Shown here: in pieces, positions 6,839 through 30,878 of the stretch
Layout of the letters: every line of letters starts with the position of its first letter
How positions within the stretch are numbered: position 1 is the first letter of the stretch
Origin: Candidatus Eisenbacteria bacterium
Lineage (GTDB): Bacteria > Eisenbacteria > RBG-16-71-46 > CAIMUX01 > JAHJDP01
Direction of reading: 5' to 3'
Assembly: GCA_018831195.1 (NCBI GenBank)
Contig: JAHJDP010000018.1
Span: 1-64,000 of the forward strand
DNA length: 64,000 nucleotides
Program-made: the position numbers and the translations under genes
Notes under the pieces: generated by a model
What the model was told of the DNA's origin: nothing
Seen by the model: only the letters and a program-made list of their open reading frames with translations
The model's database searches: none

Positions 6839-6882
6839 GCGGCCGACATCACCAGAATCAGCGGCCGACATCACCGGAATGC
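6839..6882. repeat. 22-bp tandem duplication at kinase 3' end
   Basis: Two 22-bp copies (6839-6860 and 6861-6882) differ at three positions and share GCGGCCGACATCACC. The duplication spans the last codons and stop of the minus-strand kinase gene, so the upstream-strand copy encodes the present GDVGR terminus. The rest of 6630-6857 shows no gene. Confidence 0.8.
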
Positions 6883-8798: not shown

Positions 8799-9201
8799 GC
8801 AGGCGTCCTCATCGTGAATTCCGAAAACGGATCGCTGATTCGATTGGAGCCCACCATCGTGATTACGATCCTGATAGCTAGGGATGAACTCGCTATGGCA
8901 GCATCGTGACTGGATCTCCCCACGGCACTGGTTGCGAGAATCATAGCTATTAAGCCAAACGAAGTCGACCAGACTTTGTAGTCTTTTGTTGTATATATAG
9001 TTGCGAGCGCCGATATAAATCCATGGGGTGCTGTTATTGGGTTCGGCCTCGGGCAAAGGATCGCAAGTGCGGTGGTCATATTCTGGCAAAAACGGTTATC
9101 ATACACGTAGTAGATAATGAGGGAAGAGAACAGGGTAACGAGACCCCCTTCCCCGATCCCATTCGAGGCGCATTTGGCGCAACCTATGAAAGGGCTGAAT
9201 C
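8799..9201. promoter_or_regulatory. Divergent intergenic region between kinase and sigma factor genes
   Basis: About 400 bp lie between the GTG start of the kinase (minus) and the TTG start of the sigma factor (plus). Both promoters should be here. No convincing consensus boxes or operator palindromes were recognised. The open frames crossing it have no coding character. Confidence 0.5.
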
Positions 9202-13102: not shown

Positions 13103-13561
13103 ATGAGAATTCTTGTGTACTGCTCCCTGATTCTTTCTCTCCTAGCGATAGGCTGCTCATCCCGGATGCAGGCTCTTGGAGATCTCGGCGATCTTACTCA
13201 CCAACGGTATGTTGCGCCACGGACGAGTGCACCGGACGTTGCGGACCCGGGTATCACAGGTGTCTCCCTGAATGACGATGGCTGGATCATCGTCGAAGGG
13301 CGGGGGGCTGGCTTAAGCGACAAGCTTTACGTCACCATTAGTGGTGACGAACAGGTTCCAATGGATGTGAGACCATCGGCCGACACGGGTGAATTCTGGG
13401 TAGTGTGCCCAAATTACTTCCTGGCCGTAAAGCCGGAAAGGGCTTTCACGATCCGCATTGTCGTTGGTCCCCCAAGCTACGGCAACGTCTCACGACCTTC
13501 CATGGAGAGGTTCGTGTGGGCAGGGACGGCCTCCGTGCGACGGGGTGCCACGCAGCACTGA
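13103..13561 (+). CDS. Lipoprotein A' of mirrored cluster, unknown function
   Basis: The product has 152 residues. The signal ends in LLAIGC, a good lipobox (Cys near residue 18), so it should be lipid-anchored, unlike its paralogue A at 10344. The two share GVSLN-DGWIIV, SDKLYV and R-IVVGPPS followed by MERFVWAG. The mature domain looks all-beta. AAAGGAATAGG precedes the start. The order relative to B' is reversed compared with A and B, giving the mirrored arrangement. Function is unknown. Confidence 0.83.
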   Translation: MRILVYCSLILSLLAIGCSSRMQALGDLGDLTHQRYVAPRTSAPDVADPGITGVSLNDDGWIIVEGRGAGLSDKLYVTISGDEQVPMDVRPSADTGEFWVVCPNYFLAVKPERAFTIRIVVGPPSYGNVSRPSMERFVWAGTASVRRGATQH

Positions 13562-14042: not shown

Positions 14043-14564
14043 GGGATCGCTAGATTGACAGTGCATGATAAAGGATCAGGCATTTATCGGAGAGGCCACG
14101 TGAGGTTACGCGCGAAAACGTAGTTGTCCCTTCTAAATATTCCGTCCGCATTGGGGGGCTTACGGTTATGGGTTTCGCTGAAATAGCCCGCTAGGTTAAA
14201 AATACTCGGACGAGGTCGGATTCTTTGCGAATTTCGCCCATGGTTTTGAGTCCAAAAAACAGAGAATGGTTAGTAGAGGGTCTCACCCGGGGAGCCGCTT
14301 GAAGCCATCTCGAACCGGGGTGGCTTTTCTGGTTAACGCAGGCCTCGACGGTGGAAGCTGCTGAGGTCATGCTATATCCGCAAATTGTGCTCATAGTGGG
14401 CATGAGTTTATCACAGTTGCGGACTTATTGAATTCCAGGGAGTTACGGCCTTTTCGCAGACTACGCCTCGGAGTTTTGGCCTTCATAAAAACATCCAATT
14501 TCATCCATTTTCCTTGACGTGTTGCCGAAATGGAGGTAAATGGAGGTATTCATGGAGGTGTGAT
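14043..14564. other. Intergenic region before the Fic gene
   Basis: This 520-bp gap holds repeat copy 1 (14251-14405) and, just before the Fic start, three close GGAGGT motifs (14532-14558), any of which could act as a ribosome-binding site. No gene is seen. Confidence 0.6.
14251..14405 (+). repeat. Structured intergenic repeat, copy 1
   Basis: This copy begins CCAAAAAACAGAGAATGG and contains CGGGGAGCCGC, CTCGAA, GGTTAACG and GCTATATCCG in the order shared by all full copies. CACCCGG pairs with CCGGGGTG across a 17-nt inner part, and GGCCTC pairs with GAGGTC in a second hairpin. It lies upstream of the Fic gene. No known RNA family is recognised. Confidence 0.75.
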
Positions 14565-15611
14565 ATGGATCCCCTCGGCAACTTCATATTGCCAACACGG
14601 TTCGTCAAGATCATCGGTGAGATCGATGAGTTTAAGGGTCGGTGGGCCGCGTTGGGTAACCTGGCGCCGGAGCGCCTGTCGGCACTGAGAAGGATTGCCA
14701 CCATCGAATCGGTCGGATCGTCGACCCGGATCGAAGGCGTCAAACTGACTGACGACCAGATTGAGCGTTTGTTGTCGGGTGTGCGGATGACCTCATTTCA
14801 ATCACGCGACGAAGAGGAGGTCATCGGTTACGCGGACCTGCTGGAGATGATCTACGAGTCGTATCCGGAAATCATCCTAACCGAGAATACGATCCTCCAA
14901 CTGCATAGCATACTACTGAAGCACTCCGCCAAAGACCAACGCCATCGAGGTGCATGGAAGACCTTGCCCAATCGAGTGGAAGCTTTCGATGAGAATGGCC
15001 ATAGCATCGGCGTGATCTTTGAGACTGCGACTCCCTTCGATACGCCACGTTTGATGAACGAGCTTGTAACTTGGACCACTAAAGCCATACGGAGTGGTGA
15101 ATTTCATGTGCTTTTGATCATCGCCGTCTTTATTGTACGGTTTCTTGCGATTCATCCCTTCCAAGACGGTAATGGGCGTTTGTCTCGGGCCCTGACCACA
15201 TTACTCCTACTGCGAGCCGGCTACGAGTATGTTCCTTATTCCTCTTTGGAACGGATAGTCGAGGACAACAAGGAGGAGTATTACAAAACCTTACGCCGCG
15301 CCCAAACTACGCTCGACCATGATGAGGCACAACTCATCGACTGGATCGAATTCTTCTTGCTCGTCCTGCTACAGCAGAAGCAGGTACTCGAACGCAAGAT
15401 TGAAAACGAGAATTTGATAGCCCCACTCGCGCCGCTATCTGAAAAGTTACTCGCGATTGTTCGCGGGTACGGGCGCATAACGGTACGCGAAGCGACTGCT
15501 TTAACAGGTGCTAATCGCAATACGATTAAGGATCATCTGATTCGACTCGTAGAAGCCGGTCATCTGGCGCGGAAGGGGCAGGGACGTGGGAGTTGGTACA
15601 AGAAGATTTAA
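14565..15611 (+). CDS. Fic family protein with winged-helix C-terminus
   Basis: This is a probable AMP-transferase that modifies Ser/Thr/Tyr of target proteins, with autoinhibition. The product has 348 residues from the ATG at 14565 (GGAGG upstream). An N-terminal inhibitory motif S53-x-x-x-E57-G58 marks a class II Fic. The catalytic loop is H197-P-F-Q-D-G-N-G-R. The C-terminal 60 residues (about 285-345) form a winged helix (REATALTGANRNTIKDHLI), common in Fic/DUF4172-like regulators. All active-site residues are present. It is transcribed alone and bracketed by repeat copies 1 and 2 in direct orientation. Without a partner toxin or antitoxin gene it is more likely self-regulated than a classic module. 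Confidence 0.94.
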   Translation: MDPLGNFILPTRFVKIIGEIDEFKGRWAALGNLAPERLSALRRIATIESVGSSTRIEGVKLTDDQIERLLSGVRMTSFQSRDEEEVIGYADLLEMIYESYPEIILTENTILQLHSILLKHSAKDQRHRGAWKTLPNRVEAFDENGHSIGVIFETATPFDTPRLMNELVTWTTKAIRSGEFHVLLIIAVFIVRFLAIHPFQDGNGRLSRALTTLLLLRAGYEYVPYSSLERIVEDNKEEYYKTLRRAQTTLDHDEAQLIDWIEFFLLVLLQQKQVLERKIENENLIAPLAPLSEKLLAIVRGYGRITVREATALTGANRNTIKDHLIRLVEAGHLARKGQGRGSWYKKI

Positions 15612-15640
15612 TTGAATCTCTCATTTGGACGAAAAATGCT

Positions 15641-15764
15641 GGCGGTTAACGGGGAAGTTTCAAATTCAATCCGTCTCCAAAAAACAGAAATGGTAGAGGG
15701 TGTTGAACGGGGAGCCGCGATTTCCCACCTCGAACCCAGGCGGATTGTTTAGTTGCCCCTGGCC
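15641..15764 (+). repeat. Structured intergenic repeat, copy 2 (3' truncated)
   Basis: This copy starts GGCGGTTAACGGGG, as copy 3 does, and shares CTCCAAAAAAC, CGGGGAGCCGC and CCTCGAA. It lacks the second hairpin and the CGCTATAT tail. It lies 30 bp after the Fic gene; the rest of 15612-16016 is AT-rich and shows no gene. Confidence 0.65.
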
Positions 15765-16016
15765 ATAAAATCTTAATCATTAAATAGGATTTGCATATAT
15801 GTAACAAAATAGTCTTAAGCAACTTGTGCAACTGATGATTGTAGAGTAGACTCAAAGCCGTGGATTGGTGCTTATCTGATTTTTTTGGGGGAAGGTTCAA
15901 CCACGATAAATATCATCATCTCCCTTCTTTTCGATACTCGTAATCGCGATGGTAGGGTGGGGCGGAAGGGGTGATTGCGGTATCGGCCGAGTATCAGCAA
16001 AGAAGGGGTGTTTCTA

Positions 16017-19000
16017 ATGAAGCAATCCGTCTATTCCGCATTAGTTTCACTAATCGCAGTAGTTGGCCTCGCAGTAATCCCAACAGCATCCAACGCTTTA
16101 AATGATCATCCGTTTTATGGCCAAGACATCATCGGAAACCGCGCCGAGCTCGTGAGCTTGTACCGAACCAGCGCCGATTCAGTATCGATGGGACTTGTCG
16201 ACTTCGATAATGATGCCCTCACTCCTTCCGGGTCGCCCCTCGAGTTTCCCAAAGACAACATGGGGGGATTGGCTCCGAGGGTGTACTGGAGCTTCGACAC
16301 CGATTTCAGCGCGAGAAATTACAGCCATGTCATTGAGGAGTGGGAAGGGGATCCACACGGGCCCCTTGCGCTCGGTGATGTCACCATCGATCCAACCGGG
16401 GGTCGGTTCGGCGGCGCGGCCTTCTTCGAGCGAGACAGCCTGGAGTATGTCACGATATCCTCAATCTACCCTCTCATCTCACCGGGGGAGGACTATTCCT
16501 ACTCGGCGTGGTATCGCGACGCCAACGGCGATGTCCCCGACGACACGCGGCAATTCATATTGGAGACGTTTGGCCCAGGCGGTGACTATGCTATAACAGC
16601 CTCCTTCGGACTTCGAGATGATGGAGCAGGAGGAGACTATGCCGAAGTTTGGACACAGCATGAAGGGGCGGGCAGTGGGTCCAGTGAATTCGAGTTTGAA
16701 GATGCCTGGCCATCAGGTTGGCACAACATCATTGTGACCTGTCAGGAGAGTGGGGGGCAAGCGCATCTGGAAGTCTACTATGATGGTAAAAATCTTGGCT
16801 CGTTCACAGACGCCTGGCCTCCTGCGATTACAGGCGGTCTCATTATCGGAGGCCACCGTGACGGGATCGGCCGCAACTGGGACGGCTGGATCGATGACGT
16901 GGCGTTCTGGGACCGGGTTCTCACCGAAGACGAGATCGCCACGCTGCAATCCCACTCTGTTCTTGGACCGTACCCCCAGTTTCAGCAGCTCGACCTGGCT
17001 TACGGTGACTTTGATGGAGACGACCGAGACGACGTTGTCGCAGTCTACAGCCGGCAATCAGGTCCAGCACACAATCAGTCACTCTGGATCGTAGTGCCCG
17101 CGATTCAGGACGGTGTGATCGACTTTGACGCTGATGCGACGACGTGGACGGAGGTAGGTTGCCAGACTATAGTACATGAGTTTTCGACTTCTCCCGGAAA
17201 CCTTCGAATCATCTCCGGGAACTTCGATGAAGACGAGGAGTCGGAGTTCGCTCTCAGTTACGTGTGGTGTTCAGAACCCCCCCTTTTTTACACGTGGACG
17301 ATGGAAATCGACTCGACAACTCGGATACCGAGCTTGACGCTTGTCATGGCTGCGGGGGGGGGCACAGCAAGGCTTGAAGAGTCCGCCCAAGCCGACATTG
17401 CTGCCGTCGATCTCGATCGAGATGGAAAGGACGAACTCATTCATGTCAGTAATTGGACTACCGACTATTACCTTTATCACCACCTTCAGATCGCCTCTCT
17501 CATCGATGGCACATGGACTACGGTTGAATCTTTATACGGTGGCTCGGACTGGCCTGAAGGGAGTTGGGAACGTGAGGTTTCCATTCAAGGCACAAACCGA
17601 TACGATCGCGATCGCCTGGTCTGTGACGCCGGAATGGTCCAGACCGAATCCGGGTCGCAGCCGTACATTGTAGTCGCCGCCGGGCGTCGTTGGTGGGATC
17701 TCAGTTTAGATCGGACCGGCGGCAATGACGCTATATGGTGGCTCTTCAAAGTCGATACGACTACCGAACCGCAGTGGACCATCACTTACCAGACCCAGCA
17801 CAATCTCGGAAACACCGATTGGGATGATGGCCTCCCTCACTGGAAATTCGGAACGCAATCACTGGGCATCGACACCGGTGACATAGATTTTGATGGCGAT
17901 GATGAAGTTGTCCTCGCAGCGACCGGGCTCCTCCGTGTCTACGACATTGTGAATAATGCCGGCACCCTCGAGTTTGATCAAGTTGCGACCTGGCCGCGGG
18001 TCGCTCCCCTGAACGATCCGTCGCATCGCGTAGTGCAGATCATTGATCTCGATGCCGATCCATCCCGAAGTGCGCCGGAAGACTGGCAGCCCGAGATTGT
18101 CTTTCAGGATTGGAGCAGCACTACAGCCCCCATGCATCTGCGGACGCATGTTCTCCGTCCCGTCCTTGAGGCGCAGCCTGCCGGTGAAGACACGGCTTAT
18201 GTTGTGGTCGGACTGGAGCAAGTTGACGAGCTGGAGCATACCGACGTAACGGAAGTGGGCGGAAGCATCGCCGTTTTAGGCGGCGACATCGACGGCGATG
18301 CCTTCCGTATCGGGCCTTATAAGCATCACGAGAATGTGGTCGCACTTGTTCCCACCGTTATTCTCAACGCGCCGCCCATCCTACTCGACGTCCTACCCGA
18401 AACTCCTCCGGCCGAGGCCGATACAGTTGATCTGAGCGATTGCTATTTATCCGGCGACGAGTGCGATTTTGTTGCGATTTATGAGGAATCTCAATCCTCC
18501 ACCTACTCGACAAGTACCGAGTTCAAGCCGGGCTGGGGTCCATCGGATGGCTGGTTTGCTAAGGAAAGCTGGCTCGAAAAACTCTGGGGCAAGGTCGATG
18601 ATACCTTCGTGGAAGATTATGGGGACGACTTTGCCAATAGTGAGTTCGAATCGCGCACCATACAACTCGGCACGGAGATTTCTGCAACAACGAATGGAGA
18701 TAAGATCCATGCGGCGTTGACGGTATGGGATGTGTACGAGTATCAGATGCTCGCATTTGGTGATTCGGTCGCACAGATCGCCGTCGTCGTGCCACAGGAT
18801 GCGCAGATCAGTGAATGGTCTACACCTGACAATTGGATGAACAATTACGGTAATGCCCAGGACGACTGGTACAGATTGGAGCATGAGGCGGGTAATTTGA
18901 TGTCCTATCCTTCCGATCTTGGGGTGGGCGAACTCGATCTGCTCAAGGGCCAATCGGGTCTGATCAGTGACAACCCAGGAGGAGGAACGCCTTACCATTT

Positions 19001-20099
19001 CTCGTTTGCTCAAGAGGATTACGCGCAGTCGACAGCGGACACCGTACAGAGCTCGGGTTTTATCCTCGGACACTTGGTGGATTTGGCAGGAGGGCTCATC
19101 GACTTAACCGGTGAATATAGATCCAAGACTGCGGGATCCTATACCACATCTCTTCTGACAAACTTGAGTATCGATGTTTGGTTCGGATTTAACGCCCGCT
19201 CAGGTTGGGATTACCGGGTGCGGCCCAGGGCCTTCTGGCGGAATGGCGTTCTCAATGTCGACTACGAGGTCGACTTTGAGGATTACAAGTGGGAGCAGCA
19301 GTACCGCCAGCTCCCCGATCCGGGATTCATCCTTCCGCACCGGTATGACGGGGTCTGGGATCCGTTCTACGACGGATATAACCTATACCATTCCCCGGAT
19401 GTCGTGGTAACCGCGCCCTCGATCTTGTCCAATCGGCCATTCGCGAAGGTGGGGGAGACGGTGACGATCTCGGCCGATGTGCGAAACTTCAGTTTGGCGA
19501 GTTGTCTCGATTCTGTGGTGGTTGAGTTCTATCTCTGGAAAGAAGATTGGGATGAGGCGGTTGTGCTCGGATCGGCCGAGACCGATACGATCACCGTACG
19601 GGGTCGCGCGCCGGCGGTGTCTATCGATTGGGAGGTGCCGACGTGGGTTGATACGGAAATGCGGCTCTATGCCCGCATTGACCCGACCAGCGCCGAGCTG
19701 CCCGGCGGGCTGATTGAGGAGATTCACGAGAATAACAACATAGGTTATACAATTCTAATTACCGATGGCGACGGATCGGGCCCGCCGACGAGTGGCGTTC
19801 AAACCGTCGAGTGGCTGCCCTCGGCCTTCGCCCTGCGGCAAAACCGGCCGAATCCGTTGCGTCAGTCCACGGTCTTTGAATTCCGCCAGCCGGTCAATGC
19901 TCGGACTTCACTCCGCGTGTACGATGTGGCGGGACGCATGGTGAAGACGCTGGCCGACGGACCCTATCCGGCGGGGATACATACATTACGCTGGGACGGT
20001 CGTGACACCGAAGGTAACCGGGCGGCTTCGGGCGTCTATTTCTACAAAATGGAGAGCGGTGACTTCCGCCAGACTCGCAAGTTGATCATTCTGCGGTAA
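16017..20099 (+). CDS. Large secreted protein: LamG-like, FG-GAP repeats, FlgD-like C-terminal domain
   Basis: The product has 1360 residues from the ATG at 16017 (AAGAAGGGG upstream); an in-frame TTG at 15975 is not needed. The signal peptide ends near SNA (about 26). A LamG-like jelly roll (about 75-310) is marked by VYWSFD and WHNIIVTCQE. FG-GAP/VCBS-type motifs DFDGDDRDD, DLDRDGKDE and DIDFDGDDE follow between 320 and 650. A long unassigned region precedes a CARDB-like segment near 1140-1250. The last 85 residues are a FlgD-like domain with RPNPLRQST, VYDVAGRMVKTL and WDGRDTEGN, ending KLIILR, as in T9SS-type cargo. Surface or extracellular location is inferred. A terminator follows at 20126. 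Confidence 0.9.
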   Translation: MKQSVYSALVSLIAVVGLAVIPTASNALNDHPFYGQDIIGNRAELVSLYRTSADSVSMGLVDFDNDALTPSGSPLEFPKDNMGGLAPRVYWSFDTDFSARNYSHVIEEWEGDPHGPLALGDVTIDPTGGRFGGAAFFERDSLEYVTISSIYPLISPGEDYSYSAWYRDANGDVPDDTRQFILETFGPGGDYAITASFGLRDDGAGGDYAEVWTQHEGAGSGSSEFEFEDAWPSGWHNIIVTCQESGGQAHLEVYYDGKNLGSFTDAWPPAITGGLIIGGHRDGIGRNWDGWIDDVAFWDRVLTEDEIATLQSHSVLGPYPQFQQLDLAYGDFDGDDRDDVVAVYSRQSGPAHNQSLWIVVPAIQDGVIDFDADATTWTEVGCQTIVHEFSTSPGNLRIISGNFDEDEESEFALSYVWCSEPPLFYTWTMEIDSTTRIPSLTLVMAAGGGTARLEESAQADIAAVDLDRDGKDELIHVSNWTTDYYLYHHLQIASLIDGTWTTVESLYGGSDWPEGSWEREVSIQGTNRYDRDRLVCDAGMVQTESGSQPYIVVAAGRRWWDLSLDRTGGNDAIWWLFKVDTTTEPQWTITYQTQHNLGNTDWDDGLPHWKFGTQSLGIDTGDIDFDGDDEVVLAATGLLRVYDIVNNAGTLEFDQVATWPRVAPLNDPSHRVVQIIDLDADPSRSAPEDWQPEIVFQDWSSTTAPMHLRTHVLRPVLEAQPAGEDTAYVVVGLEQVDELEHTDVTEVGGSIAVLGGDIDGDAFRIGPYKHHENVVALVPTVILNAPPILLDVLPETPPAEADTVDLSDCYLSGDECDFVAIYEESQSSTYSTSTEFKPGWGPSDGWFAKESWLEKLWGKVDDTFVEDYGDDFANSEFESRTIQLGTEISATTNGDKIHAALTVWDVYEYQMLAFGDSVAQIAVVVPQDAQISEWSTPDNWMNNYGNAQDDWYRLEHEAGNLMSYPSDLGVGELDLLKGQSGLISDNPGGGTPYHFSFAQEDYAQSTADTVQSSGFILGHLVDLAGGLIDLTGEYRSKTAGSYTTSLLTNLSIDVWFGFNARSGWDYRVRPRAFWRNGVLNVDYEVDFEDYKWEQQYRQLPDPGFILPHRYDGVWDPFYDGYNLYHSPDVVVTAPSILSNRPFAKVGETVTISADVRNFSLASCLDSVVVEFYLWKEDWDEAVVLGSAETDTITVRGRAPAVSIDWEVPTWVDTEMRLYARIDPTSAELPGGLIEEIHENNNIGYTILITDGDGSGPPTSGVQTVEWLPSAFALRQNRPNPLRQSTVFEFRQPVNARTSLRVYDVAGRMVKTLADGPYPAGIHTLRWDGRDTEGNRAASGVYFYKMESGDFRQTRKLIILR

Positions 20100-20125
20100 T
20101 CTGGAGCGAATGTTTTGCTAAGGGT

Positions 20126-20160
20126 GACCGCCTCCTGCATTGGGGGCGGTCGCTTTATTG
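20126..20160 (+). terminator. Rho-independent terminator
   Basis: A 10-bp stem (20126-20135 GACCGCCTCC with 20142-20151 GGGGGCGGTC, one G-T pair) has a 6-nt loop and is followed by GCTTTATTG. It lies 26 bases after the stop of the large FlgD-tailed gene. Confidence 0.85.
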
Positions 20161-20265
20161 TCATGCACTGAGAGCGAAGAATACAGAAAGGCAATGTGCA
20201 ATTTTCTTGTTTCCGGCAAGGCCGGCGTCAGGAAATCACTTTGCTTTAGGCTGACCTGAAGAGAT

Positions 20266-20440
20266 GGCCGTTAACTGGGATGTTTCAAAATTATCGTCTC
20301 CAAAAAACGGAGCGTGGTTCGCAAACGGTTTCACCCGGGAGCCGGGATGAGCTGCCTCGAAATGGGGTGAATCATTTGGTTGACGCTGATCCCGGTGGTG
20401 AGAGTTTCCGGGTCGCGCTATATCCGCAGGTGACTTAGAG
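20266..20440 (+). repeat. Structured intergenic repeat, copy 3
   Basis: This is the fullest copy. TTCACCC pairs with GGGTGAA around the GGGAGCC...CTCGAA core, and a second hairpin pairs CCCGG with CCGGG around TGGTGAGAGTTT. It ends CGCTATATCCGCAGGTGAC. It lies between a terminator and the next secreted-protein gene; the remainder of 20441-20711 contains no evident gene. Confidence 0.8.
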
Positions 20441-20711
20441 ATTTAGTGGAGCGGATTATTGAGGCTGATTCTCTTCACCCGCGTGATATTGACGCTAGCC
20501 CGGCGAGGCGGATATTATTTGGTAGTCTGGTAATTGAGGACCGGGCGGAAGCGGCATTTGGGGCCACCAACCTTCCAGCCCATTGGAGAAGCTCCCTGGC
20601 GTGGCCCAGCGACACCGCCGGGGAACGAAGTTCTGACTACGAGGAACACGGCGCCCGCCTCCTGTCCGGTGGCGGACGCACTGCGCTGTTCCTGCACCGC
20701 CGGAGGCAATC

Positions 20712-23111
20712 ATGCGCATCCTGAGTCTCACCGCTCTGGCTATCCTCATTCTGGGTCTCGCATCGCCCGCACTGGCTGGCTGGGAGACCGATCCTTACGA
20801 AAACAACTACATCTGCACCTACGATCTCGAACAGGGGTGGCTGGAGGGGATGCCGGATGGAAGCGGCGGCATCGTTGTCGTCTGGGTAGATTACCGCCTT
20901 GGACCAGATGACAGGCGGATCTATATCCAGCGTCTCGATGCAAACGGAGACCGGGCTTTCGCCGCGCAGGGTATCCGTGTCTGCACCTACGAGAGCGAAC
21001 AGCATTCGCCGCAGATCGTGAGCGACGGAGCAGGCGGGGTGATCGTCGTTTGGTGTGATGTGACGGCGGGAGAGACAAATCTCTACGCGCAGCGAATCGG
21101 CCCGTCGGGCGCCCTGCTTTGGGATCCGGCCGGAAAGGCCGTCTGCACGGTCGTCGGCTCGCAGCAGTCTCCCCATGCAGTCGCGGACGGATTAGGCGGG
21201 GTCGTCGTCGCTTGGGGCGACTATCGCTCGGTAACCGTGGATGTCTATGCCCAGCGCCTCAACTCCAGCGGGGTGCGGCAGTGGACATCGACCGGCGTGC
21301 TCGTCTGCGACGCGACCGGTGACGAGTACGTTGATGGCCTGGTTGACGATCAGACCGGGGGAGCCATCGTCGTATGGGTGGATCACCGCGATGGCCAGCA
21401 GGTCTACGCCCAGCGGGTCAATTCGGTGGGATCTCCGATCTGGACGGAAGATGGTGTGCACCTCTGCTCGACGACGGACGTCCAGTACGACGCTCTCGCG
21501 GCGTCGGACGCCTCCGGCGGAGTCTTCGCTTTTTGGTACGATGGGGAGTACGACAATATCACCGGAATGCACGTGACATCCGGCGGGACTCTTGATTGGC
21601 CGAGCCTCGGCATGGCCGCCTCGACGGGTAGCGAAACCCAATACCGTCCGGCAGTCGCTCCGGACGGCGAGGGAGGAGTCCTCGTCTCGTGGCAGCAGGG
21701 GGGTTGCAACGACATCTACGTTCAGAGATTGAGCCGCGAGGGCTGGCGCCTCTGGGGCTCAAACGGTGTTCAGGCTTCCCCCGCCTGCCAAGTATATTTA
21801 AGCGTTCGCCATTCCCTGGCGCCGGACGGCAGCGGCGGCGCGCTGCTGGCCTGGACCGATCGGCGCTTCGGCAACGACCACTTGTCCGTACACGGACAGC
21901 GCGTGGGAGCCGGTGGCGACCTGCGCTGGGATCCGGATGGTGTCATGATTTCCCGTCCGACTTGCTCCATCGAGAAACCGGAGGTGGTCTCCGATGCTCG
22001 AGGCGGGCTGATCTCTGCCTGGACAGATAGTAGGGTCTGGGAGATCACCGAGCTGGACATCTATGCGCAGCGCCTCGATGCCAATGGCTACTGGGGCGTC
22101 GCCGATCCCGTGATGGCCTCGATCGAGGACCGTCCCGACGACCAGGGAGGGAGCGTTATCGTTGGCTGGACCTCGGCCTACGTGGATGCCGATCCCTACT
22201 TCGCCGTGGAGAACTACACGCTTTGGTTTCGCGCCTCCTCCGGGGCTCGGGCCGCCTCTCCGCTCTCTCCGGAGCAGCTCGTGGAACTGCGGGAGGTCTG
22301 CGGGCTCGAACCAGCGCGTATCGAGGCTCTACTCCGTGACAGCTGGACCTATGTCGTGACCGTGCCCGCAATCCAGACGCACGATTACTCAACCCTGGCG
22401 CCGACCTTCGGCGACTCGACGGAGAACGGTATTGCATGGATGGACTACAAGGTGCTGGCGCATGGAACGCGTCCGGGAACGATCTGGGAGTCGGAGCCAA
22501 TGGCAGGTTACTCGGTCGATAACTGGGCTCCCGGAGCGCCGCTCTACCTAGTGGGAGAGATGGACGGGGAGGTGGTCTCATTGTGGTGGACCGCCAGCGG
22601 GCATCACGACGAGGATCTCGACTATTACATTATATACCGCGGGACCACGAGTGACTTTCCGCTTGATGAAGCGCATCAGGTCGGCAGCGCAGACGATGCG
22701 TCCTACACGGAGGAGCCGGGACCGGGAACCTGGCACTACCGTGTGACGGCGATCGACGTTCATAACAACGAGAGCGAGGGGAGTGGAGAGGTCATCCTCA
22801 GCCCCTCCTCGACGGTGGAGGAGTCTCTTCCGACGATGCTTTCCTTCTCGCGACCTCATCCCAATCCGGCTCGAGAGCAGACGGCGATGACTCTCGCACT
22901 GCCGAAGCCGCAAACGGTCAAGGTGATTGTGGTTGACGTCAGCGGCGCCCGCGTCGCGATTCTTGCTCAGGGGACGCAAGCGGCTGGAGTACATCGGTTC
23001 GTATGGGATGGGCGCGACGACGCGGGACGACCAGTGGCCTCGGGGATCTATCTCTTTCAGGTTGAAGCGGAAGATTGGAGGAAATCAAGCCAGGTCATCT
23101 GGATCCGATGA
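20712..23111 (+). CDS. Secreted beta-propeller-like repeat protein with FlgD-like C-terminus
   Basis: The product has 799 residues with a signal peptide (about 1-22, ending ALAG). Eight repeats of about 50 residues cover roughly 40-460; each has a DG-x-GG turn, a [VL]-x-W-x-D-x-R strand, then YAQR[LV] and W-x-x-x-G-V. A propeller is the simplest fold, though the eight-unit count is by eye. A fibronectin III-like region (about 620-700, YYIIYRGT and WHYRVTAIDVHNN) and a FlgD-like domain (about 715-799, HPNPAREQT, WDGRDDAGR, ending QVIWIR) follow. The GC-rich codon use matches the other secreted genes. It is convergent with the broken lipoprotein gene. Confidence 0.88.
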   Translation: MRILSLTALAILILGLASPALAGWETDPYENNYICTYDLEQGWLEGMPDGSGGIVVVWVDYRLGPDDRRIYIQRLDANGDRAFAAQGIRVCTYESEQHSPQIVSDGAGGVIVVWCDVTAGETNLYAQRIGPSGALLWDPAGKAVCTVVGSQQSPHAVADGLGGVVVAWGDYRSVTVDVYAQRLNSSGVRQWTSTGVLVCDATGDEYVDGLVDDQTGGAIVVWVDHRDGQQVYAQRVNSVGSPIWTEDGVHLCSTTDVQYDALAASDASGGVFAFWYDGEYDNITGMHVTSGGTLDWPSLGMAASTGSETQYRPAVAPDGEGGVLVSWQQGGCNDIYVQRLSREGWRLWGSNGVQASPACQVYLSVRHSLAPDGSGGALLAWTDRRFGNDHLSVHGQRVGAGGDLRWDPDGVMISRPTCSIEKPEVVSDARGGLISAWTDSRVWEITELDIYAQRLDANGYWGVADPVMASIEDRPDDQGGSVIVGWTSAYVDADPYFAVENYTLWFRASSGARAASPLSPEQLVELREVCGLEPARIEALLRDSWTYVVTVPAIQTHDYSTLAPTFGDSTENGIAWMDYKVLAHGTRPGTIWESEPMAGYSVDNWAPGAPLYLVGEMDGEVVSLWWTASGHHDEDLDYYIIYRGTTSDFPLDEAHQVGSADDASYTEEPGPGTWHYRVTAIDVHNNESEGSGEVILSPSSTVEESLPTMLSFSRPHPNPAREQTAMTLALPKPQTVKVIVVDVSGARVAILAQGTQAAGVHRFVWDGRDDAGRPVASGIYLFQVEAEDWRKSSQVIWIR

Positions 23112-23370
23112 GGACGGTCCACCCGGAAGCTTCATCGCACTCCGCCATCAACCAGGGGACCGTCATCGGAAACCACCGTCGCAGACGTGGCATACATTTC
23201 TTAAAAATCAAGCCAAGGACATCGTGCGACGGCTTTCGCATTACTTTAACTATTACCACATCTCCCGCGCGCATCTCGGATTGGAGAAGGATTGTCCTGT
23301 TCCAAGATCGGTGGTGCCTCCCGAGAACGGGAGATCGGTTTCAAAACGCAGTTCAGAAACCGGTGAGACA

Positions 23371-25277
23371 CTACGGCTCATCCTCAAAATCCAACAGGTC
23401 GACGGGAATGATCTCCACCGTGCCCGAGTCGAAACACGACAGCGCAACGTGAGGGACACTGCTGAGGCCGACGAAGACCGCGTATATCGGCGCCTGGCCC
23501 GTCTCGGGTACGGGATAGGTCTTCTTATCGATGTAATTGCCAGCCGAGCTGTAGTGCGACAGGGTGTACGTGTTGTTGATCGCGCTTGTGCTCACGACGA
23601 GATACGTATCGTCCGGCAGTTCTCTGACGTCGATGCCGCGCGGGCCGGCGCCGACAGTCGTATTCTGGATGTTGCTGATCGATGCTCCACCACTCCACAG
23701 GAAGGTCGTCAGCGTGCTCGAGCTGGAATTGCTGATCGCGTAGAAATCACCTACCCCACGTATCTGTCTAGGAAAGGATTGCGCGCTGCCGATCGCGGTG
23801 CCATCGACCAGGATGTCCTGGCGGGCGTGGTACCCATATCTGGCCGGTGCTGGTGATTATCAGCGCAGCTCTGGTCGTGTTGTGCGCGATGCAGCTCACT
23901 ATCTCGCCGGTCAGGCCGGGAAAGCTGTTGGTGAAGAACAGAGAGACGAGGGTGGGGGAGCCTTCGAAGCGTCCCGTCGCCGGATTAAAATCCAGGAACC
24001 CGGCCCGTGTTCGTTGGGCGGAGCTGAAGCCGGGGGAGTTATTGATGCTCCCGTAGTCACAGGCGTCTGCTATCGGGGTTGCGTGAGCCAGCATCATCCC
24101 GTATTCGCCCGCGGTCGAGTTCCAGTACGTGATATAGTTGTATTCCTCTTCCTCGTAAATGAACAGACATCGTTCTATCGCGCTGCCCTGGCCCGATATT
24201 GGAAGAACTCCGGCCGCATTGGCCCGCGTAATGGTACCCACCAGCTCCGCTGATACGATGTAGTGATCCTGGTTCTTCACGAGACGGTAATATTTCACTC
24301 CCTCATAGGCGGCAACGTAGAGCCACGGGTCCGTCGGCGCGCCCAGCGGCGCCGGGTCATTGAGGACTTCATAGGCGACACTGATTCCTTTGAGCGCCGC
24401 CATTCCCGTCGCGATGGAAATCGCCGGTGGCAGGGGCTCCGGATCACTGACCAGAAAATGAATGGGCTTTGCCCGCAGATGTATCTTGGATTGCCCGATG
24501 GTCGCTCCGTCGGGCAAGGGCAGATGCATCCCCGGTATGTCCATGAACTCGAGATCGGCTTCGAGACTCGTGGTGAATTTTACGTCTCCAGCCATCCCCG
24601 GATACAATTCGACAGTCCAACTGTACATGGTCCGGTTCTCATGTAGTTCCTCGACCTCTTCAGGATCCCAGGGGGTACCCGGCAGCAGGAGGGAGTAGAA
24701 ATTCCACTGTCCCGGCAATGAGCCCATCAGCGGGTTGTCGAGTGTCAGCCCTCCGCTTCCTCGTAATATGACAAAGAGGTCGAAGGGGCTCCCTCTGTCC
24801 TCGACCAGGGGAGGCGATGCGTCGTCACTGAGTTTGAATTCGGCTTCTAGTGTCAGCTTCGTATACCCGTTGTCTTTCGCGCTCGGGTCCGCGGGATTGC
24901 CGATAACGAGTTGAGACCATCCCATTGTCTCGGCAGTGATCGTGACGTTGTTTTCCGTGTCCGGGTCGAGGTCGTAGACAAGAACCTGGCTAGGGGCCGA
25001 GTTCACGTCGGTCGTCCTGACGATGCCAAGAAGCAGTGGATACTCCTGCGGATCATCCGCTTTGCCCGCCGTCTGAGGGACCGGCGGCGCAGAGAAACTG
25101 AAGCTGATCTCGGCGGGAGCCGTCAGCCCCAGATCCGGCGGGGCCTGCTGTGCCGCTGAGTTCTGCCGGCTCGTAAGGCTGTGGGGTCAACACGTCGTCG
25201 GTCTTCTCACAGCCGAGCATGAAGGCTGTCAGACAGGCGATGGAGATAGGAAGTGCGCTGGATTTCATCATGTACAT
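23371..25277 (-). pseudogene. Lipoprotein gene interrupted by two frameshifts
   Basis: Three overlapping frames join into one product of about 635 residues. The first (from 25277) gives a signal with lipobox FMLGC and reads to about 25160. The second (open from just below 25189 to 23768) holds the long middle, including SFSAPPVPQTAG and LVYDLDPDTENN. The third (from about 23865 to 23371) gives the C-terminus with GVGDFYAISNSSSS and ends DLLDFEDEP. Each junction needs one base removed (or two added). All segments look like real protein, so a sequencing error or recent decay are both possible. The middle and C-terminal parts look beta-rich, perhaps a propeller. No family is recognised. Confidence 0.75.
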
Positions 25278-25377
25278 CCCCCGGGTTAACAGTCCACACG
25301 AAAACTGTGGAGGGATAGTACTATCAATAATGCATCACAGTCAAAAGACTGTTACCGACGGCGGGTGGTTATGCTTA

Positions 25378-25488
25378 CTATACCGGGGAGCCGCAATGAG
25401 CTGCATCGAAATGGGTGGTTTATCTGGTTAGCAAAGACCCTGTTGGCTTAGGACATCTGGATTCGCTATATTTGTAAGTATCATAGAG
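25378..25488 (+). repeat. Structured intergenic repeat, copy 4
   Basis: This copy contains CCGGGGAGCCGCAATGAGCT, ATCGAAATGGG, TGGTTAGC and a tail ATTCGCTATATTTGTAAGT. The 5' CCAAAAAAC block is not evident. It lies in the 360-bp gap between the broken lipoprotein gene and the AsmA-like gene; nothing else is seen in the gap. Confidence 0.72.
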
Positions 25489-25641
25489 TTTCGCGGATAT
25501 GGGAAGTGATTGACGCACACGTTGTGGCACCGGGCCCCTTTGACAGCGGGGCACTCGTTTTGAAGGCTGAGATTGGTGATTTGACTATCGGACGCACCTA
25601 TTCATTGAACCGCGGTTTGCAGGAATGAAAGGGATTTCGCT

Positions 25642-28194
25642 ATGAAGAAAACTCTCATCGTAATTGCCGCGCTATTGCTCCTGCTCGTGGCAGCACTGTT
25701 CATAGTGCCGCTGGTATTTGAGGGGCAGATCAAGGAAATGGTCAAGCATGAAGCCAACAAGCGCATGGCTGCCGCTCTCGATTTCGATGACATCGGCCTC
25801 AGCCTGATCAGACATTTCCCCAAAGCAACACTCACGATCGACAAAATGATAATCGTCAACAAGGAGCCATTTGCCGGCGATACCCTGCTGGTGCTGCCGG
25901 AATTCGAGGGGACAGTCAATCTCGGCAGTCTTATCGGCGGCGGCCCGCTGGAGATCGTGTCTATTCACCTGATTGAGCCGCACATGAATCTGCGGGTGGG
26001 GCAGGATGGACGCAACAACTGGCAGATATTTGCCGAATCGCCCCCGGAAGATGTATCCGCGGTGGACGCGTCCACCAAGCCGTTCAATCTGGCAGTACAA
26101 ACCTATGAAATTAAGGATGGCCATCTCAGTTACCAGGATGAGGCCGGCGGCGTGCAGGTGCTTGTCGCGGGATTGCGGCATCAGGGGCATGGTGATTTCA
26201 GTCAGAGCCAGTTCCTATTGGCGACCCATACCGAGATTGCGGCAATGACCGTTTTGATGCAGGGAACAACCTATCTCAGCGAAGCGCAGGTTGTGGCAAA
26301 GGCGGATATCAATGTGGACCTCGTGAACAAGAAGTACGTTTTCGCTGATAATGAGATACGTCTCAATGATCTCGCGCTTGCATTTACTGGGTGGGCTGCT
26401 CAGCGTGGGGAAGAGGTGGAACTTGATCTGAGGCTTGGTGCCCCTGAGGCTGATTTGAAAAGCCTGCTGTCGATGATCCCCTTTGTATATCAAAAAGACT
26501 TTGAGGACCTTTCCGCCGAGGGCCAACTGAAATTGGCCGGCGAGATCAAGGGTGTCAGCAGCAAGACGTCGCTTCCGAACTTCGACATCAGCGTCAATCT
26601 CAATGAGGGCCGGGCGAAATACTCGCAGATGCCGACCTCAATTGATCAGGTGCAAATGACTCTCCAAATCAGCAACCGCGGTAAAGAACCTGATGATGTC
26701 GTGGTTAAACTTGACAGCCTTCATTTCGAGATCCTCGGCAAGGCGGTTGACATCACCGGCTCAGTGAAAACGCCGCTGTCCGATCCCCTGCTTGACTTGA
26801 ATATCATAGGCTCCGTGGATCTGGGAACTGCCGTCAATATCGCCCCGCTCGAGCAGGTACCCGACCTCAAAGGCGACCTGCGGTCGGAGTTGCATCTGAA
26901 GGGCAATTTGTCGGATGCCGAGAAGGGCCACGCCGACAAGTTCAGTGTCAGCGGCGTACTGGTCTTCACCGATGTGGATTATGGCTCCGCGCAGCTTCCC
27001 GAACGTCTGAAAGTGAGCAACGCTCAGATCACCTTTTCGCCGCAGCGAATCACACTTGACAAGCTAATAGCCAAAGTCGGCAAGAGTGATGTCAGCGCCA
27101 ATGGGCTGCTGGAAGATGTTGTCGGTTACATCTTCGCCAAGAAGACGCTCAAAGGTACGCTTGTTGTCAAGTCGAGCTTCCTTGATCTGAATCCCTGGGT
27201 GACCGACGAGAGTGAAAAGTTGCAGGCAGTGGAACTCCCGGCTGGTGTTGAGATTCTGATGCAGGCTGATTTCGGACGCGTGCTTTACGATAACCTGGAA
27301 TTGGCCGATGCTGCCGGCAATCTTCAACTGAAGGATCAAATACTGAGCTTGCTCGATCTGCATACGAAGACATTGGGAGGAACGGTCGTTGCCAGCGGCA
27401 ACTATAGTTTCATCCCGCCGAAACGACCTCATCTCTTCCTCGATGCCAAGGTAACCGAACTGAGCATACCGACCACCTTTGAAAAGCTGGAAGCAGTACA
27501 GCGTTTCGCGCCCATCGCACATCATCTGGTGGGTTCATTTAGCGGCGAGATCAATATCGACTCCGATCTCGATGCCGCATTGCTGCCCATGTGGCAGGAA
27601 TTCTTCAGCAAAGGTCAACTCCGTATTCCCAAGGTTGATTTGAAGGGATTCGCACCGCTCGACATGGTAGCCGACAACCTCCAGCTTGCCAAACTCAAGA
27701 ATCCCTCAATGCACAACCTGGATCCGGCCTATCTAATCGAGGGCGGCCGTTTCCGACTCAAGCCGATCGACTTTTCCATAGACAATTACCTGATCACAGT
27801 CTCGGGTTCGAACGGACTCGATAAGTCAATCGACTACAAACTGACAATCCATGTCCCCGCATCTGAACTCAAATCGAAAACGAACTCTTTCATCTCACAA
27901 CTGGTGGGTCAGGACATCGCCGCTCTGACCAATGAAACGATTGTGATCGATGTGGCCATCGGGGGCACCCTGACGAGTCCCAGTGTCAAGACTTCACTCG
28001 CGCAGATCATCAAGGGTGCGGTCACTGATCCACTCAAAGACGCCGTCACGGCTGAAGTGGACAAACAGAAACTCGAGGCAGAGAAGAAGGCGCAAGAGGA
28101 AATCGCCAAGCAGAAACTGGAGCTTGAGAAGAAAAAGAAAGAAGCGGAGGAGAAGATCAAGAACAAGCTGAAGGACTTGTTCAAGAAACCGTAA
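25642..28194 (+). CDS. AsmA family protein
   Basis: The product has 850 residues. AAAGGG precedes the ATG. An N-terminal membrane helix (about 4-24) is followed by an AsmA N-terminal domain (IDKMIIVNKEPFAGDTLL; LRVGQDGRNNW near residue 125) and an AsmA_2-like C-terminal domain (about 620-790, with SFSGEINID). The last 45 residues are a Lys/Glu-rich coiled coil. AsmA-like proteins sit in the inner membrane, reach across the periplasm, and are implicated in outer-membrane lipid homeostasis. It is monocistronic, convergent with the ATPase gene at 28334. The family is clear; the exact role is not. Confidence 0.9.
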   Translation: MKKTLIVIAALLLLLVAALFIVPLVFEGQIKEMVKHEANKRMAAALDFDDIGLSLIRHFPKATLTIDKMIIVNKEPFAGDTLLVLPEFEGTVNLGSLIGGGPLEIVSIHLIEPHMNLRVGQDGRNNWQIFAESPPEDVSAVDASTKPFNLAVQTYEIKDGHLSYQDEAGGVQVLVAGLRHQGHGDFSQSQFLLATHTEIAAMTVLMQGTTYLSEAQVVAKADINVDLVNKKYVFADNEIRLNDLALAFTGWAAQRGEEVELDLRLGAPEADLKSLLSMIPFVYQKDFEDLSAEGQLKLAGEIKGVSSKTSLPNFDISVNLNEGRAKYSQMPTSIDQVQMTLQISNRGKEPDDVVVKLDSLHFEILGKAVDITGSVKTPLSDPLLDLNIIGSVDLGTAVNIAPLEQVPDLKGDLRSELHLKGNLSDAEKGHADKFSVSGVLVFTDVDYGSAQLPERLKVSNAQITFSPQRITLDKLIAKVGKSDVSANGLLEDVVGYIFAKKTLKGTLVVKSSFLDLNPWVTDESEKLQAVELPAGVEILMQADFGRVLYDNLELADAAGNLQLKDQILSLLDLHTKTLGGTVVASGNYSFIPPKRPHLFLDAKVTELSIPTTFEKLEAVQRFAPIAHHLVGSFSGEINIDSDLDAALLPMWQEFFSKGQLRIPKVDLKGFAPLDMVADNLQLAKLKNPSMHNLDPAYLIEGGRFRLKPIDFSIDNYLITVSGSNGLDKSIDYKLTIHVPASELKSKTNSFISQLVGQDIAALTNETIVIDVAIGGTLTSPSVKTSLAQIIKGAVTDPLKDAVTAEVDKQKLEAEKKAQEEIAKQKLELEKKKKEAEEKIKNKLKDLFKKP

Positions 28195-28333
28195 GCTGAG
28201 AGATGTGCATCCCGATAAGTGTGCCACAAAAGCGAGGAAAGGGGATCAGGATTGACTGATCCTTCAGAATGTGTAAGTGCGGTTTTGTGAAAGCATGATC
28301 ATTGCCCGTATCCACGGGCGGGTTCCGCGCCGG

Positions 28334-29476
28334 CTACCGCCGCTCCAGTTTTCCCTTCCAGAGTTCATCCAGGAACACTTGCCATGGTAGGATCCGTATC
28401 CCACCGACCTGCCGGACACGTGGTTCTAAACTCACGCAGATCATCTGCTTGAGTTTCTTCTCCTCTGAGAGGGCTCGCAAACCCCTAAGATCATCAGAAG
28501 TAATATTCTTCTTAGCTTTCGCCTCAATGGCCGTGTGATCGCCAATGATAAAGTCAACTTCAAAACCTGAGGTGGATCGCCAATAGCTCAAGATTTCGCC
28601 GGATACAGAATCTCTTTGGCAGCGAAGCTCGTGGAAAATGTAAGTTTCAAAGGCTTCACCGAACTCCGGCGTGCCGATCCTGAATGCCCTGCCCTGCAGG
28701 GATGCCACGACTCCAACGTCGAAAAAGTAGTACTTCGAACTCACGATGGGCTTTCGTTTAAGAGACTTTTTCCATGCCGGAAGCTCATGAACAATGAGTG
28801 TGTCCCTCAAGATATCGAAGTAATCGTAGACGGTTGTCCTTGCCACCTGCGCGTCGTTTGCGACCTTTGTATAATTCACAATAGTGGCATTGCAAAGGGC
28901 GGCGATGCGTAGGAAGCGGCTGAAAGCGGGTACATTGCGGGTAGCGCCCTCCGCGGCAATTTCTTGCTGCAGATATGAGCCCACATAGGCTTCCAGATCT
29001 GCAGCAGGATCGTCGGAGAAGTAGATTGAAGGGAGGAGACCCCGCGAAGCCATCTTCAACAGATCGAAACGATCACCCAGCTCTTGATAAGTCAATGGAT
29101 GAAGAAACTTCGTGCGGACTCTACCTCCCAATAGATTGACCCCTCCTCGTCGGAGTTTGCGTGCGCTTGACCCCGTGAGCAAGAATCGAAGCCCTCGGGA
29201 TTCAATCAGGCGGTGAACCTCATTCAAAAGTTCCGGGAGTCTCTGAATCTCGTCAATGACGATGACGCTGTCCTTTGGGGAGATTTCCTCTTCCAATCGG
29301 CCCGGATTATTGCTGAGCGCCAGAAAGACGGAAGAATCGAGGAGATCGAAGATTCGGGCGTCGGCCAGAGAGCGGCGGATTAAGAAGGTCTTGCCGGTCT
29401 GACGGGGTCCGAACAAGAAATGAGATTTCTTCTGCAGGAGAGCATTTAGATCCAGGGTACGCGTTACTTCTACCAT
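28334..29476 (-). CDS. AAA family ATPase with DUF4143 domain
   Basis: The product has 380 residues. On the minus strand GGAGG lies 5 nt before the ATG at 29476. The P-loop is FGPRQTGKT (about 22-30), the Walker B VIVIDEIQRLP (about 70-80), and a sensor FLLTGSSARKL follows. The C-terminal half is a DUF4143 region with a restriction-endonuclease-like fold signature (EVDFIIGDHTAIEAKAKK). The family is widespread and often mobile; its targets are unknown. It stands alone, convergent with the AsmA-like gene. Confidence 0.93.
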   Translation of the reverse strand: MVEVTRTLDLNALLQKKSHFLFGPRQTGKTFLIRRSLADARIFDLLDSSVFLALSNNPGRLEEEISPKDSVIVIDEIQRLPELLNEVHRLIESRGLRFLLTGSSARKLRRGGVNLLGGRVRTKFLHPLTYQELGDRFDLLKMASRGLLPSIYFSDDPAADLEAYVGSYLQQEIAAEGATRNVPAFSRFLRIAALCNATIVNYTKVANDAQVARTTVYDYFDILRDTLIVHELPAWKKSLKRKPIVSSKYYFFDVGVVASLQGRAFRIGTPEFGEAFETYIFHELRCQRDSVSGEILSYWRSTSGFEVDFIIGDHTAIEAKAKKNITSDDLRGLRALSEEKKLKQMICVSLEPRVRQVGGIRILPWQVFLDELWKGKLERR

Positions 29477-29629
29477 GTCGGCCTCCAGAATCGTCGTCTA
29501 TTTCGTCATTCAGGATGCCAAATGACGACTATATTGTCAATTGGTATTCAACCCAAAGCAACTATTCTATCTATCTATTTGGGGGGCTATCGGTTAGGTA
29601 TGCGAAACCAGAAACTCGACGTGAGCTGG

Positions 29630-29767
29630 AATCAGAGAATGATGAGAAAATGGTCCCGCACGGGGAGCCACCGGAAGCCGCCTCGAAACGGGGCGGTTTG
29701 TTTTGTTAACGGAGACCCCGGTGGTGAGAGCTGCTGGGATTCGCTATATGTGTAAGTGTCATGGAAG
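29630..29767 (+). repeat. Structured intergenic repeat, copy 5
   Basis: This copy contains CACGGGGAGCC, CCTCGAAACGGGG, GTTAACGGAGACCCCGG, TGGTGAGAGCTGCTGGG and ATTCGCTATATGTGTAAGTG. Its 3' half is nearly identical to copy 3. It lies between the divergent-strand ATPase start and the end of the beta-helix gene, which is on the minus strand, so the copy is antisense to that gene's 3' flank. Confidence 0.78.
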
Positions 29768-29771
29768 GTAT

Positions 29772-30878
29772 CTAGCGTTTATTCTCGCGGGAATTGAGTT
29801 TTAATAGGCCCCACGTGGTCGGAATAGGGGCTGGTGTCGGAACGGAGGAAATTGGGCAGCCAATTGGAAGAGCGCCTATCAACCCGCAGTCGGTATTATC
29901 CGGGTGGTGACCGGGCAAGCAGGGGGAGCTGGCAGTCAGGGTGAAATCGCCGTTGTCGGGATCACAGAATTGAGGATCGGCGCTTATATGCCCGTCTACG
30001 CCGAAGGGGCCAAAATCGATCAAATTTCCATACACGTCATTGCAGGAGCATTCAAGATGCTCCAAGCTAGCGTTCCCACTCCCCACATTGAAAGCAATAA
30101 TGTTATTCTTGTAGGTCCCAGATCCGGTGTGCTCGATGATTCCACCATAGGATCCACTCTCGTTAAACGCAAAGGTATTGCCTTCGATGAATGCAGTATT
30201 GCTGTGAAAGCGGAAGAGCGGGAAGTCAGAGCAGGTATTGTTGACGACCACATTTTGTCTAAATGTAAGAGTACCGTCAAATGTTCCAATGATATCTATA
30301 CTGCTGAAGTTGCCTTCAATCCAACACCCACTTATGGTGGGGGACGCAAAAAGAATCTCCAATGCGGCTCCCGACAAGGCGTTGTTTTCGACAATGTGAA
30401 GACCCTTAAAGACCGGGGTGCAAAGATCGGGAGACGGCGACCCCTCGACATTGATCGCTCCACCGCCGGGGGCGCCATAACCTCCTTCTCTGCCATGCGT
30501 GAGTGTGAGGCCCTCCACTACGGCTTCAGAGCTGATATTCCCCGCATATTCTGCCCAACAGACAACAACTCTTCCCTGGTCCTGAGCATCGAGTATCGTG
30601 ACTTCGGGGCCATCGGAGCTGTGAATCCAGATACTGTCTTTCATTGTGATGATTGTGTTCCAATCTCCCCACGGGTCGGGATGCAAATCGGAATACACAC
30701 CGGGATGGATCAGGACATCATCCCCCGCCGAGGCGGAGTCGATCGCTGCTTGGATGGTCGGTGCGTCACCACTCCCGTCCTCGTAGACATGCCATGTTTC
30801 AGAGTATGAAGGCTGTACCATAGATTGGAGCAAAGCAAAAGCCATGGCAACCAGTACAAAAGACCGATTCACATACAT
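29772..30878 (-). CDS. Secreted right-handed beta-helix protein with TWGLLK tail
   Basis: The product has 368 residues from the ATG at 30878 (GAGG 9 nt upstream on the minus strand); a start at 30905 lacks this. The signal peptide ends near SYSE (about 27). A beta-helix of the pectin-lyase-like type is marked by DAPTIQAAIDSASAGD and repeated G-x-[IT]-x-x-N-x-[IVA] coils. Such proteins are mostly surface or extracellular. It ends in a Pro-rich linker and TTWGLLK plus a basic tail, a motif shared with the exported protein at 62248. No catalytic residues can be assigned. The Cys content is high (about ten), suggesting disulfides. Confidence 0.85.
   Translation of the reverse strand: MYVNRSFVLVAMAFALLQSMVQPSYSETWHVYEDGSGDAPTIQAAIDSASAGDDVLIHPGVYSDLHPDPWGDWNTIITMKDSIWIHSSDGPEVTILDAQDQGRVVVCWAEYAGNISSEAVVEGLTLTHGREGGYGAPGGGAINVEGSPSPDLCTPVFKGLHIVENNALSGAALEILFASPTISGCWIEGNFSSIDIIGTFDGTLTFRQNVVVNNTCSDFPLFRFHSNTAFIEGNTFAFNESGSYGGIIEHTGSGTYKNNIIAFNVGSGNASLEHLECSCNDVYGNLIDFGPFGVDGHISADPQFCDPDNGDFTLTASSPCLPGHHPDNTDCGLIGALPIGCPISSVPTPAPIPTTWGLLKLNSRENKR

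Follow-up and report, generated by a model that had tools for sequence, protein, structure and literature searches.

The window analysed here is a stretch of 64,000 nucleotides from a Candidatus Eisenbacteria bacterium (contig JAHJDP010000018.1, positions 1 to 64,000, forward strand); the contig, C18, belongs to a genome of 5.24 Mb, G000, which we refer to as the own genome. It carries five copies of a direct repeat, named W1 to W5, all on the forward strand and none within a credible gene. An original prediction had placed the copies at about 14251, 15641, 20266, 25378 and 29630, with the ordered blocks GGGGAGCC, CTCGAA, a GTTAAC-like motif and CGCTATAT in common, and these observations are confirmed. 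It had also taken the origin of the repeat to be unrecognisable, which is wrong: sequence search identifies a tRNA-Asn gene as its source, and the copies probably mark the boundaries of adjacent mobile gene islands. The relatives used for comparison (G001, G002 and so on) belong to the same order and class, and the nearest of them sit in other families of the order.

W1 (14221-14400) contains a tRNA-Asn-derived segment at 14285-14326, hairpin 1 at about 14301-14328, hairpin 2 at about 14343-14366 and a CTATAT tail; a covariance model (CM) matches it at 14258-14381 with 119 bits, and weak profile similarity extends to 14513. W2 (15640-15802), the most decayed copy in the window, has a GTTAAC left arm and a tRNA-Asn-derived segment at 15708-15755, and its hairpin 2 is gone (CM 15683-15802, 64 bits). 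W3 (20266-20542) likewise has a GTTAAC left arm, followed by a tRNA-Asn-derived segment at 20333-20367, hairpin 2 (GATCCCGG...CCGGGTC) and a degenerate 3' part (CM 20306-20427, 109 bits; nhmmer 20271-20542). In W4 (25353-25617), the tRNA-Asn-derived segment at 25383-25413 leads into the right arm and a degenerate 3' part (CM 25353-25475, 87 bits; nhmmer 25383-25617), while W5 (29600-29852), the best-kept copy, has the segment at 29653-29703 and both hairpins (CM 29631-29753, 116 bits; nhmmer 29623-29852). The copies are not chance similarities: pairwise blastn within the window joins W1 and W5 (E = 1.4e-12), W1 and W3 as well as W4 and W5 (1.1e-7), and the left arms of W2 and W3 (5.6e-5), and W5 alone finds W3 and W4 genome-wide (E < 1e-7). 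A reading of the repeat as a fragment of a small coding gene was rejected, as 1-nt indels between aligned copies break the frames.

Six genes lie between the repeats. A Fic-family gene (14514-15611, +; Fic 62.8 bits; PADLOC SoFic 4e-43) separates W1 from W2, and a gene for a large secreted protein with LamG and FlgD_ig domains (15975-20099, +) separates W2 from W3. The block between W3 and W4 encodes a secreted protein with a FlgD_ig tail (20712-23111, +) and a protein without an assigned family (23768-25006, -); that between W4 and W5 encodes an AsmA-family protein (25642-28194, +) and an AAA_14 and DUF4143 protein (28334-29476, -; PADLOC candidate PDC-S01, 3e-56).

The only intact tRNA-Asn(GTT) gene that we found in the own genome is at C46:17226-17300. 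With tRNA-Asn and its terminator as the query, a copy on C119 was matched at 80% over query positions 30-110 (E = 1.4e-14), as were copies on C42 (2e-12), C120 and C70 (both 5e-7) and W5 (1.8e-6), with W1, W4 and W2 weaker; compared with the tRNA 3' end and terminator, each of W1 to W5 beats 2000 of 2000 simple base shuffles. The shared blocks can be read accordingly: GGGGAGCC is the acceptor 3' strand of tRNA-Asn, the anticodon loop accounts for GTTAAC in the left arms of certain copies, and CTCGAA is the loop of the hairpin just after the tRNA. By sequence comparison, the repeats derive from the 3' half of tRNA-Asn(GTT) together with the hairpins behind it, which they retain in decayed form. 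Their left arms are of two types, one tRNA-like from the anticodon loop on (C119b, C42, several G005 copies and G001) and the other a non-tRNA arm, CCAAAAACAGAGAGTGGTTCGTAAAGGG, joining at the T-arm; the pattern resembles that of attachment sites whose arms come alternately from target and element. A sequence close to the non-tRNA arm, GGTTTGTAAAGGGTATAACCGG, also occurs about 65 bp past the intact tRNA-Asn (C46:17301-17370), where it is possibly the scar of a lost island.

The statement that no known family matches the repeat holds for Rfam, though not for its origin, which is identifiable as tRNA-Asn with its trailer. At gathering score, Rfam has no match in the window, and at the anchor loci it finds intact tRNAs and nothing else; gathering and relaxed thresholds taken together return, besides intact tRNAs, just a fragment of a group II intron close to the copy on C57 and one sub-threshold chance match (anchor loci). 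Rfam and ARAGORN make no call on the window copies because the tRNA-Asn source is too decayed there. The intron fragment (L123, G000:C57, 3843-3963; RF01999, 97 bits) begins some 420 bp beyond one of the repeats. The length and tRNA origin of the repeat speak against the RAYT-linked repetitive extragenic palindromes and bacterial interspersed mosaic elements (REP/BIME).

In the relatives, the repeat adjoins the tRNA gene itself. Its hairpins and body lie directly behind an intact tRNA-Asn in G002, G003, G005 and G006; in G013, G016 and G027, two similarly arranged hairpins take that place. Downstream, more copies occur on the same strand in G001 (tRNA-Asn at about 1360, copies at 2315 and 4651), G002 (tRNA-Asn at 60390, copy at 62111) and G005 (contig C87, tRNA-Asn at 62222-62296 and copies at 60823, 35736 and 29516, all on the minus strand). 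These are same-strand arrays anchored at tRNA-Asn.

We found that the two hairpins covary: among 36 distinct aligned copies, 84% of cells are paired and there are 38 double changes versus 15 in shuffles, a score reached by none of 500 shuffles and far above that of slid controls, and although the alignment was fitted to the model and is hence biased towards structure, the effect is large nonetheless. Covariation of this strength, together with the retention of the body behind tRNA-Asn in several families, is what might be seen in a structured noncoding RNA family with an independent function at each locus and only a historical tie to tRNA-Asn. We give this explanation hardly any weight, as the position of the repeat relative to neighbouring genes is not constant (a convergent gene follows W5), single window copies folded alone do no better than shuffles, W5 mildly excepted, and covariation is expected of a tRNA trailer and terminator. 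Hairpin 2 (GACCCCGG...CCGGGGTC) has a T-rich run behind it in G002, G003 and G006 and resembles the terminator of tRNA-Asn, so the simplest reading of the covariation is that of a tRNA trailer copied into islands. The structured RNA that had been proposed is thus present as two hairpins and not as a new RNA class, and of the other proposals, a mobile repeat or a site-specific element is best supported, by the anchoring at tRNA-Asn, the uniform orientation and the linkage to a serine recombinase described below.

The copies were at first thought to occur only in one 16-kb stretch, which is true inside the window alone. A search of the own genome with W5 finds 14 places, 11 of them on other contigs; covariance models built from the copies find 16-17, one of which is the intact tRNA-Asn, and a further 25, 5, 4 and 2 in four relatives. 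Nor does the proposed length of 110-175 bp describe the whole element. Fuller copies on C119, C68, C42, C36 and C90 extend over about 400-500 bp, the best of them adding a unit end of about 250 bp that is conserved beyond the terminator, whereas the window copies retain chiefly the 5' part, with degenerate 3' remains in W3 and W4. The last 141 bases of contigs C119 and C120 are identical, as are the first 141 of C36 and C90; these overlaps resemble assembler k-mer breaks. Together the four share an identical core of 170 bp, with unrelated left flanks and right flanks about 70-75% alike by eye. The confinement of identity to boundary sequence suggests recent recombination or conversion at the site, and strain mixture in the assembly is a possible alternative source of the identical core.

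The ends of the element are complementary in inverted orientation over 24 of 25 bp in G012 (GGTTCGTAAACCGTCCG...; L248, G012:C274, about 1505-1815). Full copies on C68, C90, C36 and G005 contig C103 likewise have mutually inverted ends, those of the own genome pairing GTTCGTAAAGGGT with ACCCTTTACGAAC; binding sites, an invertible segment or a closing stem are candidate roles. Such ends might also be those of a tRNA-derived dispersed repeat, akin to a short interspersed nuclear element (SINE) or a miniature inverted-repeat transposable element (MITE), that spread through retrotransposition or with the help of a transposase that acts on the inverted ends; the copies are indeed dispersed and diverged, have a tRNA-like head and are in certain cases 5'-only or 3'-only. 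We consider this very unlikely, given that orientation is non-random (neighbouring copies less than 30 kb apart lie on the same strand in 15 of 15 pairs, P = 3e-5) and that arrays begin at tRNA-Asn itself. Such a repeat would also leave the recombinase linkage unexplained, end complementarity within copies exceeds expectation only marginally (202 of 5000 permutations), and no target duplications are definable, the edges of the element being blurred. The MITE idea in particular was set aside, as the inverted ends are strong in G012 alone and marginal overall.

Behind tRNA-Asn and the repeat body of G003 come a small open reading frame (ORF), another that resembles DUF2924 (so named from visual inspection of its sequence) and genes for a serine recombinase of 529 aa and a protein of 138 aa; this large serine recombinase (LSR) module is less than 1 kb from the tRNA gene. 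In the own genome, related LSRs (PF00239, PF07508, PF13408; PHROG 'integrase'), preceded by DUF2924 (PF11149) where checked, lie downstream of a repeat on C90, C36 and C42, and LSRs of the same clade are placed likewise in G002 and G005. The upstream sequence is readable for nine LSRs of the clade, and in eight of these a repeat on the same strand lies at most 10.5 kb upstream, at distances of 1-10 kb (P ~ 7e-15 under random placement, a value that ignores contig ends, with many contigs breaking inside repeats or LSR genes). The LSRs are thus linked to the repeats, whereas none of 15 distant serine-recombinase matches and none of eight tyrosine recombinase loci in the own genome has a repeat on the same contig. 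The LSR genes of the own genome share 85-88% DNA identity, and several related elements therefore coexist. One LSR fragment, on C81, runs on into phage-type replication genes, and a search of IMG/VR with the LSR gave two relatives at 48-49%, neither with the repeat.

This linkage bears on a further explanation, in which the islands are real but their sites were made by a tyrosine integrase that has since been lost, the LSR elements merely using the region. The 3' ends of tRNA genes are the classic target of tyrosine integrases, the distance from LSR to repeat varies, and site-specific serine-recombinase elements have been reported inside dispensable genes (PMC5704250). Set against these points are the linkage of eight of nine LSRs versus none of eight tyrosine loci and the proximity of the G003 module to tRNA-Asn, and we regard a lost tyrosine integrase as unlikely.

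It is likely, in our judgement, that the repeats are attachment-type boundaries of a decayed tandem array of site-specific integrative islands targeting the single-copy tRNA-Asn(GTT). Each repeat carries a copy of the tRNA 3' half with the downstream hairpins and terminator, so that the tRNA gene would come out of integration whole, terminator included, and the far end would gain another sequence of this sort, open to further islands. Successive insertions would then produce same-strand direct repeats with one or two cargo genes between neighbours, and copies distant from tRNA-Asn would be secondary sites or moved islands. On the strength of its linkage, the DUF2924-linked LSR is the probable catalyst of integration; the mobility of the islands and the position of the crossover are what we infer from the arrangement. 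The window contig has no LSR of the clade, and its array looks decayed and non-autonomous, movable at most in trans.

Several observations weigh against this interpretation. No empty site, circle or excision was seen, and published serine-recombinase sites are short compared with the 120-500 bp of the repeat. The copies are dispersed over many contigs, the 3' halves of most are too degenerate to rebuild a tRNA, and the tRNA-Asn of the own genome, on C46, is without an array. Two of the six cargo genes in the window, and the neighbour of W5 on its far side, are on the minus strand, and a repeat lies to the right, just after the LSR, in a single case (G005 C14). The contig ends ignored by the linkage probability count here too.

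Elsewhere, repeats flank SoFic (C42, C57), DUF4143-AAA (C57, C117, G007) and SIR2 with DUF5131 (C36), and in relatives a class I Argonaute (L188, G002:C24, 14595-16022), an HmaA-type helicase (L196, G005:C87, 6008-9520) and a type I restriction subunit (G005 C121) stand beside repeat copies. PADLOC matches with E < 1e-20 were obtained for 7 of the 29 nearest genes versus none of 20 controls (P = 0.018), an excess that is suggestive only because the real-looking ORFs were chosen by eye. The cargo near repeats may often consist of candidate anti-phage genes, as judged from sequence models.

Upstream of the array, at 1574-6629 (+) and 6858-9089 (-), the window also contains a complete-looking type I restriction-modification set (HsdM, HsdS, HsdR) and a protein with matches to defence models of PD-T4-6 type (35 PADLOC families). 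Two similar ORFs for small secreted proteins (GVSLN/SVSLN-DGWIIV motif) at 10344-10793 and 13103-13561, upstream of W1, are apparently a local duplication, and within ORF 48421-50301, at 48562-49601, a sequence of about 245 bp is directly repeated with 67% identity.

The repeat can now be used to search for island boundaries in a lineage about which little is known, and it directs attention to an LSR, with DUF2924 as a possible partner, whose predicted target, a tRNA 3' end, is unusual for a serine integrase. Candidate anti-phage genes between the copies are a further lead. If the sites work, such recombinases would also be useful as integration tools. The arrays preserve a history of gene turnover that recurred at one tRNA in several families.

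The tandem-island arrangement is of a known kind; we did not find it described in the literature at tRNA-Asn. Accretion of integrase-less elements is a known process, and cis-mobilizable elements (CIMEs) keep their att sites and stack at tRNA 3' ends (PMC5704250). The units described here resemble CIMEs and the tandem accretion of integrative and conjugative elements (ICEs) and integrative and mobilizable elements (IMEs) in that integrase-less units keep attachment-type sites and stack at a tRNA 3' end. The previously described elements at tRNA ends, however, use tyrosine integrases, and no conjugation genes were recognised here. Cargo bordered by a tRNA or its end repeats is also found in tycheposons (PMC10872708) and in the tRNA-Lys-repeat islands of Methylophilaceae, which use a tyrosine recombinase and other tRNAs, with 20-bp repeats in the tRNA-Lys case; none of the eight tyrosine recombinase loci here is on a contig with repeats.

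Chromosomal integrons and clusters of attC sites lacking an integron-integrase (CALIN) also have same-orientation, site-like repeats between blocks of one or two genes, and arrays without an integrase, but the blocks here are larger and their genes face both ways. An integron attC site was rejected for the repeat itself: the R'' core box RYYYAAC is in no window copy, and the R' core box GTTRRRY occurs by chance in W2 only. The own genome does have an IntI-type integrase (G000:C69:1123-2064, -; TIGR02249 441 bits, well above cut-off), with no repeat on contig C69; a second one, at G000:C65:3625-4332 (+), is broken by an in-frame TGA and has no repeat of this kind there. Tentatively, and with more doubt than confidence, we can imagine a class-wide, modular system anchored at tRNA-Asn, in which a DUF2924-coupled LSR captures and stacks small, often anti-phage gene blocks between long attachment sites that reproduce the tRNA transcription unit over its entire 3' end, from T-arm through trailer hairpins to terminator; this would be the serine-recombinase counterpart of a sedentary integron.

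In the staphylococcal cassette chromosome (SCC) with Ccr, large serine recombinases stack islands at one site, and remnant islands without a recombinase occur. Unlike the islands described here, SCC has its site in a protein gene, short att sites and other recombinase partners. SCC has been compared with the ssrA islands of Dehalococcoides, which have the serine recombinase DsiB, are tandem, in some cases lack integration genes, are bounded by repeats of the ssrA 3' end and carry strain-variable cargo (McMurdie et al. 2011; PMC3146451). As in those islands, the tandem units lie to one side of a single-copy RNA gene, their direct repeats derive from the 3' end of that gene, and a serine recombinase is beside the boundary in part of the islands only (eight of nine LSRs of the clade, none in the window array). 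The Dehalococcoides islands target ssrA, have a 20-bp repeat, all lie less than 100 kb from ssrA and carry a six-gene integration module with a second small serine recombinase. Here, the target is tRNA-Asn rather than the tmRNA gene (Rfam at the anchor loci gives tRNA), the repeat of 120-500 bp includes trailer hairpins, the partner is DUF2924, copies are dispersed over many contigs and the cargo is of putative defence type. Because target, repeat length, recombinase partner, cargo and dispersal all differ, we set these islands apart from the ssrA island family, though they would work alike.

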